Assembly (NCBI GenBank): GCA_950022695.1
Contig: CATLLN010000002.1
Location: 186,001 to 250,000, forward strand
DNA: 64,000 nt
Origin: an uncultured bacterium
Lineage (GTDB): Bacteria; Cyanobacteriota; Vampirovibrionia; Gastranaerophilales; Gastranaerophilaceae
Direction: 5' to 3'
In this document: positions 41,130-47,829 of the stretch, in pieces
Numbering within the stretch: the first letter of the stretch is position 1
Layout: each line of letters opens with the position of its first letter
Program-made: the position numbers and the translations under genes
The notes under the pieces: generated by a model
Told to the model about the DNA's origin: nothing
The model's input: the letters and a program-made list of their open reading frames with translations, nothing else
Databases searched by the model: none

Positions 41130-41873
41130 TTACACTTTAATTTTCCATAAATCTGCAGGAATTACCCAACCATTATTTTTTACTCTCATCAAGCAATAAT
41201 ATCCTGCATTACTATCATTTGCAAGAGCTGAACAATTTTGATTAACTTTTTCATTTGTTTCATTAACTCCGGCAGGGAATAAGCCATCCGGAGTCCAGAC
41301 AAGAATGAATATATCTTTACCGATTACATTAGGTAAACTGTCCCCATTTGCATCAATATAAACAACTAAAGATGATGAAGTTGTATTTGTTCCAAACCAA
41401 TTCTTCATGTCATCCTTCTTAAACCCATCAATACATAAATTAGTCCCATTTGATAGTTTTACGGTTAATATACCGGATCCAATACCTATGCCTGTTCTAT
41501 TCCCGGTTGCATTTCCACCTTTAAGTGTTCTTGTAGGCCCTTTATCCTGCCAACATCCGGCTTTATCATAACAAACAGATACATATTTCAAATGCGGTGC
41601 CATAAAAGTTTCAAACCAAAGTTTCATCCCGGCTAAACTGTCAGGAACCGACAAATCCAGAGAAACATCATCATACTCCGTAAATTTCATTACCTGTTGA
41701 ATAATTGCATAATCCTCTTTTAATAATGATTCTATTTTTCTTTTCTGTTGATTTTGTACTATCGACGGGATAGTTATAGCAGCAACAACTCCAATTACTC
41801 CTAAAGTAATCAAAACTTCTGCTAACGTAAATGCAAACTTTATTTTTTTAAATTTCTAACCATTCAACAACTC
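41130..41873 (-). pseudogene. Pilin-like protein 5, frame-broken at an A7 run
   Basis: The body encodes a typical family member: KFAFTLAEVLITLGVIGVVA, then DANGDSLPNVIGKDIF and a C-terminal Cys pair (QNCSALANDSNAGYYC). The only SD-linked start is ATG 41873 (GGAG 7 bases before it), which reads MVRNLKK and then hits TAA in the seven-A run at 41852-41858. One extra A would join it exactly to the prepilin sequence. Without it no start codon precedes the pilin N-terminus. Causes could be mutation, a sequencing error, or transcriptional slippage on the A run. A perfect promoter lies upstream. Confidence 0.75.
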
Positions 41874-46974: not shown

Positions 46975-46982
46975 GAAAAGCA

Positions 46983-47014
46983 AGGCGCGCGGCGCGACAC
47001 GCCGCGCGCCTTTT
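46983..47014. terminator. Very stable bidirectional terminator
   Basis: AAGGCGCGCGGCG and CGCCGCGCGCCTT form a nearly all-GC stem of 13 pairs with T4 after it. It separates mutS2 (plus) from pilin-like gene 6 (minus). Confidence 0.85.
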
Positions 47015-47017
47015 AAT

Positions 47018-47772
47018 CTATTTAAAATGTTTCACAAGTGATTTAAAATAATCAGTTTCGGTTTTAGCCTTGTAAGCACAAGCTATGCCGTTAAGCCCGT
47101 CACCTTTTTTAGGATTACAATATTTTTCAACATCATTATAAGTAGTTTCCCTATCACCCATAGTACGAAGTTCACCATTAATAAATTGAAACGTAAATAA
47201 ATCATATCCCCATCTATTAGGTAATTTTCCAAATCCATTTATGTCCACCAACACCCATAAGTGATCAACACCATTTGGATTTTCAATAGCTACAAATGTA
47301 CCGTCAGAAAGGACAAGCTGACCATCATCAAAAATACCTCTAGCTAAATATTCAGTTCCATTATAGTTTTTATATCTATTTCGCTTATTGTTAAACTCCT
47401 TAAAACCGGCACAAGGAAAAGCATCGCTTGTATTTGAAAAAACTCCACATTCATGCACCCCTGCTAAATATTGTTTAAATACATCATAAAAAGAACCCAT
47501 TTTCCCAGAATAAGCGCTTATATCTGTTGAAACATCATCAGCTTCCATTCTTCTAAATACCTGCTGAATTGTAGAATAAGACTTTAAAAATTGAGAGCGT
47601 AATTGATGCGCTTTGTAAGCAGTCATCAAACCGGGAATTGTAAGTGCAGCAACAACACCAATAATACCTAAAGTAATTAAAACCTCAGCTAAAGTAAAAC
47701 CTGGTAAAGCACGTAAGGAAAGCTTTAAACGGTCTCCCCCCCCCGCTTTTCTAATTTTTTGTTAAATTTCAT
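47018..47772 (-). pseudogene. Pilin-like protein 6, out of frame at a G9 tract (candidate phase-variable)
   Basis: ATG 47772, with AAAGGAGAG before it, reads MKFNKKLEKR into nine G (47736-47744), then ends at TAA after 15 codons. With ten G the frame joins RLKLSLRALPGFTLAEVLIT, a normal prepilin cleavage region. The body then gives DINGFGKLPNRWGYDLFTF and a C-terminal Cys pair (YCNPKKGDGLNGIACAY), closest to pilin-like protein 4. No alternative start precedes the pilin N-terminus, so this version is off. A G9 run in such AT-rich DNA near a surface-protein start is the classic form of a contingency locus. Sequencing error is the main alternative. Confidence 0.8.
47736..47744 (-). repeat. Homopolymeric G9 tract in the pilin 5' coding region
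   Basis: Nine consecutive G on the coding strand, 28 bases after the ATG. It is the only G/C run of this length that I noticed in the window. Gain of one G restores the reading frame. Confidence 0.9.
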
Positions 47773-47800
47773 ATATTTTCTCTCCTTTGATTATGAATTA

Positions 47801-47829
47801 AATATAATTCATTTTTTATAAGTTTGCAA
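47801..47829 (-). promoter_or_regulatory. Promoter of pilin-like gene 6
   Basis: On minus TTGCAA, 17-base spacer, TATATT, about 30 bases before the ATG. An intact promoter argues that the gene is still under use. Confidence 0.6.

Follow-up and report, generated by a model that had tools for sequence, protein, structure and literature searches.

Runs of G in prepilin leaders as probable on/off switches in gut Gastranaerophilales

The Gastranaerophilales, relatives of cyanobacteria, are widespread in the gut and for the most part uncultured. The stretch of 64,000 nucleotides analyzed here from one of their genomes (the window) contains a gene that raises a simple question: why does a start codon with a ribosome-binding site lead into a run of nine G that leaves an intact pilin-like body one base out of frame? 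The original prediction was that of a single phase-variable pilin. On the basis of comparisons within this genome (G000) and with related genomes, we consider the best reading of the sequences, and a likely one, to be that a large prepilin family undergoes ON/OFF phase variation by slipped-strand replication and is OFF in the consensus; cells can probably switch pilin surface fibers on and off by the gain or loss of a G. The features of the locus are as follows.

47801..47829, minus strand: promoter-like match TTGCAA-17-TATATT, 9/12, weak
47782..47786, minus strand: ribosome-binding site AGGAG, 9 nt upstream of the ATG
47772-47770, minus strand: start ATG
47725..47772, minus strand: OFF-frame leader open reading frame MKFNKKLEKRGGETV, 15 codons, then TAA
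47736..47744, minus strand: run of nine G, the proposed switch, one of the 22 G9 runs of the genome
47725..47735, minus strand: stretch after the tract, AGACCGTTTAA; most other copies have TAACNNNTTAA
47018..47743, minus strand: prepilin frame from the tract to the stop (GGGDRLKLSLRALPGFTLAEVLITLGIIG...)
47021..47698, minus strand: prepilin from the FTLAE motif onward, 226 codons, intact
46982..47012, minus strand: intrinsic terminator hairpin 3' of the gene, strong; 14 pairs, 11 of them GC

The frame one base back of the ATG frame holds 241 open codons from the tract (GGGDRLKLSLRALPGFTLAEVLITLGIIGVVAALTIPGLM...), ends at the stop at 47018-47020, and includes the prepilin motif G/FTLAEVLITLGIIG; the locus thereby has the N-terminal signature of prepilins, a G or A before F-[ST]-L-x-E and then a hydrophobic stretch. 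It scored above the PF07963 cutoff in a genome-wide profile search, whereas the trimmed 226-amino-acid body alone scored below that cutoff, and searches of Pfam and NCBIfam gave no name to the pilin body beyond the N-terminal motif. The layout originally described, from the ribosome-binding site and the ATG at 47772 through the nine G and the stop after 15 codons to the intact prepilin in the next frame, was confirmed at every coordinate, and one extra G does put the prepilin in frame. Of the good ribosome-binding site and promoter originally claimed, the promoter is weak: it matches at 9 of 12 positions, and shuffled sequence gave promoter-like matches about as often (4.4 expected, against 5 in the real sequence). 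Terminator-like sites, by comparison, numbered 5 against 0.7 expected. A MutS2-type gene and a peptidase-T-like gene flank the pilin gene, which stands on its own, and its AAGGAGAGAAA-ATG stretch is also found before the other tract-bearing prepilins of the genome.

A genome search for G8 gave hits solely as overlapping pairs, corresponding to 22 runs of at least nine G in the 1.95-Mb genome, every one of them exactly nine, where 0.26 per genome would be expected from the window's own base statistics. In 18 of the 22 cases, the ribosome-binding site and ATG of a prepilin-like gene closely precede the run, which is placed at codon 10 in nearly every case, so that the 5' part of the reading frame carries a homopolymer longer than chance would give. 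These 18 genes share a repeated module that consists of a ribosome-binding site, a leader of about 10 codons, the G run, and then usually TAACNNNTTAA; in each, the ATG frame terminates within 20 codons, and all 18 tracts need the same correction, one G more. The remaining four runs are found in a prepilin-leader remnant (L029), at the 3' end of a kdsB-like gene (L024), and as C9 runs in L018 and L022. We rejected the idea that the last two are antisense copies scattered by mobile elements, as both are coding genes that traverse exactly nine C in frame, and L018 has a homologue (L190) in G001. The prediction of one switching pilin-like protein is supported by the comparisons with respect to switching and needs correction with respect to number, given 18 such genes in the genome.

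The offset is a property of the tract-bearing genes. Matches to the prepilin N-terminal family number 68 in this genome. Among the tract-free prepilins that we examined, an in-frame start is present in all 48, and in 46 it comes with a motif resembling a ribosome-binding site, whereas none of the 18 G9 prepilins combines an in-frame start with a ribosome-binding site; the frameshift thus tracks the tract rather than general assembly noise. Two further prepilins lack an in-frame start. One is a second prepilin of the window (41130-41863, minus strand), the ATG of which, at 41863 and preceded by a ribosome-binding site, is not in frame with the pilin, the offset coinciding with an A7 run (41843-41849). 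It was considered as a second homopolymer switch and rejected: its orthologue in G001 (L365), which is 91% identical, has 25 more leader bases and is in frame, pointing to a 25-nt deletion in G000. The other (L292, near position 1380; G000:C5, near 65500) has a G7 run in a similar leader and is one base out in the same sense.

The original prediction proposed a comparison of the tract in related genomes. We searched for the pattern GGGGGGGGTAAC and used its reversed spelling as a control. Within the genus, 15 of 46 genomes had the motif, with as many as 36 occurrences in a genome; it was also scattered in other genera, with 53 occurrences in G092. Among named records, it occurred in Candidatus Gastranaerophilales or Melainabacteria, in gut bacteria, and in a Muribaculaceae-labeled bin matching the contigs of G014; matches elsewhere among the named records were single and probably due to chance. 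G014 itself (JAMPCZ01 records) is filed as Muribaculaceae, carries the Gastranaerophilales tract and pilins, and was placed in the genus of the window, so it is probably mislabeled; a tract marks the end of many of its contigs. Viral contigs searched for the motif held no copy, which leaves a phage origin unsupported.

Compared at one genome per species, lengths do differ across species, and in-frame copies exist in G001, G023, G027, G030, G092, and G155. We scored the copies with a start near the tract (n = 128) and found 12 of them in frame, a count to be read with the reservation that copies within one genome are not independent, their leaders sharing descent. G000 contributed 17 G9 tracts, all one G short, the eighteenth copy (the second copy in L026) being merged because its leader is the same. 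G001 has nine short G9 tracts, one G10 in frame, and one G11 out of frame; G023 has 22 short G8 tracts and three G9 tracts in frame (two of the three at contig ends); G027 has 10 G8 and three G9 tracts that are short. The offset has the opposite sense in other species: G11 to G12 tracts in G030 have one G too many, with one G10 in frame; nine G13 tracts in G092 have one too many, with two G12 in frame; and in G155, G12 tracts mostly have one too many and G11 is in frame. The tracts of G009 (9 and 10) are all out of frame, in both senses, and G007 has many more tracts, mostly G11, followed by CACC instead of TAAC. The commonest length is thus species specific (8 to 13) and usually one base from in frame, the in-frame copies being a minority. 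Length differs by 1 to 3 among module copies within a genome and between orthologues, and adding or removing one unit decides between the full protein and an early stop, with both kinds present in G001, G023, G092, G155, and G030. Stops in the two wrong frames fall within 18 nt of the tract in 101 and 124 of the 128 copies, versus 34% at control positions; in most copies the TAACNNNTTAA stretch supplies close stops in both. As the window copy has AGAC instead of TAAC, only one of its wrong frames stops at once.

Homologous loci show the same variation. Orthologous tracts pair as G9/G11, G9/G8, and G9/G10; L019 (G9) and L189 (G11), for example, have bodies that are 85% identical. The G027 orthologue of the window gene (L394), on a contig that also has MutS2, has a 29-nt leader and nine G that run in frame into the pilin, with 88% identity to the window gene over 59 residues before the contig ends. 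Tract-free, ordinary short leaders also occur in homologues at 64 to 67% identity (L332, L333, and L354). Leaders are alike at 64 to 69% of nucleotides within a genome and at 39 to 49% between orthologues of G000 or G001 and those of G023 or G027, the closest pair, G000 and G001, keeping its leader at 71 to 88%. That leaders are more alike within a genome than between orthologues suggests that the 5' module has been duplicated or gene converted within genomes. More tentatively, and with rather more doubt than conviction, we propose a gene-converted or mobile "switch leader" that spread over dozens of Gastranaerophilales prepilins. Each species would exchange its leaders as a set, with the result that each cell would display its own random small subset of pilins; the same tract is also present where large secreted proteins have their signal peptide and at polysaccharide gene ends.

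Tracts and repeats in other contexts were observed as well. The same tract is found in the signal-peptide region of large secreted proteins (L032, L045, L034, L055, L056, L223, L226, and L227; GGGVTLKALSxA...), some copies being in frame and others out; in G060, similar leaders have 9, 10, and 12 G, and one tract-bearing secreted protein gave a weak match to the Chlamydia Pmp repeat. At the 3' end of the kdsB-like gene, a G9-TAAC tract is kept in two species (L024, near 2035, G000:C4:30535; L052, near 1499, G001); a TGA in one of the three frames overlaps the next ATG, and the tract length could set translational coupling. Several prepilin leaders (L302, L308, L309, L151, L235, and L241) have inserted stretches resembling dispersed repeats, and three of them (L302, L308, and L309) show a partial doubling of the FTLAEVL motif in which GRG..MLPVFSKAG separates the two copies. 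G008 and G021 have 140 and 88 prepilin matches and almost no G runs, some of their leaders being several hundred bases long, and G173 has a different dispersed repeat (L132, L212-L216, and L218), 10 to 13 G and then TAACAACTTTT, not at recognizable gene starts.

A consistent offset of one base has explanations other than switching. Homopolymers are error-prone, and that every prepilin tract of G000 is off by the same base would fit an assembly or sequencing error in which the true length is ten and the genes are simply in frame. However, L018 and L022 cross their C9 runs in frame at exactly nine, tracts of 8 to 14 G were found in other assemblies, and the offsets in G030, G092, and G155 would require over-calling instead, which makes such an error highly improbable. 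The family could also be in decay, with leaders that are frameshifted remnants and pilins that are no longer made; the 25-nt deletion in the neighboring prepilin, the remnant L029, and the short L028 are consistent with this. Against it, full-length open frames are retained in nearly all tract-bearing copies, and uninterrupted G runs persist at 34% GC though other glycine codons would do. Further, dN/dS was 0.10 to 0.26 for nine pairs of tract-bearing orthologues, eight of which are OFF on both sides, implying that the pilin bodies are used at times. Clear decay of the gene in relatives, named at the outset as an observation that would speak against a switch, is therefore not what we see, the bodies being intact and under purifying selection, and we regard decay as very unlikely.

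Alternatively, the missing base might be made up at expression. Nearly all copies in G000, G001, G023, and G027 need the same −1 shift, and a GGGGGGG heptamer lies inside the run in the right phase for programmed −1 frameshifting, in which ribosomes would slip back on G GGG GGG in a fixed share of passages. Yet other species and orthologues need the opposite shift or none, fold energies of the 75 nt after the tract were like those of shuffles, and no RNA structure at or after the tract stood out above shuffles; with neither a conserved direction of shift nor a stimulatory structure, we give this mechanism hardly any credence. The main rival is transcriptional slippage, in which RNA polymerase adds or drops a G so that part of the mRNA is in frame, giving low constant expression from unchanged DNA. 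It would accommodate a uniform nine with intact, selected genes and a modal length usually one base from in frame, and either offset would work. Nevertheless, it needs neither the variation in DNA length between similar copies and orthologues nor the in-frame alleles, both of which exist, and slippage of this kind is best documented for runs of A and T. We consider it an unlikely explanation of the whole pattern, while it could add to expression.

Slipped-strand phase variation fits the combination of length polymorphism at otherwise similar leaders, in-frame minorities, and intact bodies. The tract would then be a simple-sequence contingency locus between codon 10 and the prepilin signal, in which replication slippage would change the length of the G run: one G more would bring the prepilin in frame (ON), and with the present nine G, translation would end after 15 codons (OFF). 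With 18 modules in this genome, individual cells could each present a small selection of their own from a large pilin repertoire. We infer that populations contain mixtures of lengths, that these change at some switching rate, and that the pilins are expressed as surface fibers varied towards host, phages, or competitors. The weakest point is the uniform nine in G000, since a freely switching clone should show more spread, as Campylobacter tracts do with 53% nine and 26% ten; because all tracts there in G000 are exactly nine, ON/OFF mixtures are invisible in the assembly and stand as a prediction, and if the assembly reflects the consensus of a population, each locus could hold mostly nine G and some ten and still look the same. 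The small number of in-frame copies also counts against switching, as does the G7 prepilin, out of frame in the same sense though G7 should be fairly stable. Absent mismatch repair was rejected as a cause: MutS and MutL are present throughout, which should lower the slippage rate, and switching may be slow.

If this reading is correct, surface variation, which has been studied mostly in pathogens, also shapes a gut lineage without known harm. Switching can be tested without culture from existing metagenome reads, and gene callers will give these pilins as truncated or missing. The literature searched, the coverage of which was incomplete, yielded no paper on phase variation in Gastranaerophilales, and in a single-cell genome paper type IV pilus genes are the only related mention; the mechanism is already known, while none of the papers searched reported it from this host group, with a shared leader module, or on this scale.

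The closest parallel in a gut commensal is Bifidobacterium breve UCC2003, with G tracts in the sortase-dependent pilus genes bbr_0113 and bbr_1889, where one base decides the frame and deep sequencing showed mixed tract lengths in the population (PMC9187656). There, too, a G run (10 to 11, in the first pilus gene) splits the gene at its annotated length (PMC9187656), although the genes and the phylum are unrelated, and two sortase pilus operons take the place of a prepilin family with one shared leader module. Neisseria pilC likewise has poly-G inside a type IV pilus gene, with a modal nine in pathogens (PMC5953494), but it is an accessory gene of one or two copies, whereas in our system the tract is in the genes of the pilin-like subunits, 18 of them in one genome. 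The Campylobacter phasome resembles our system in its AT-rich genome with many poly-G tracts on the coding strand, mostly of 9 to 10 (53% nine, 26% ten), and C. jejuni has 18 to 39 phase-variable genes (PMC6321876); its targets are many unrelated surface and modification genes, in contrast to one paralogous family with a common leader, almost all OFF. A large, mostly silent paralogous surface family that shares a repeat module with conserved flanks is known from vlhA of Mycoplasma gallisepticum, which is active at only one repeat number (PMC6258824), although its GAA repeats act in the promoter and the G run would act in the reading frame. Finally, in the C-terminal switching of Helicobacter canadensis a homopolymer near the 3' end alters the end of the protein (PMC2823697), as the tract in the kdsB-like genes L024 and L052 could; the genes are unrelated, and the tract in the kdsB-like genes is in addition closely followed by the start of the next gene.
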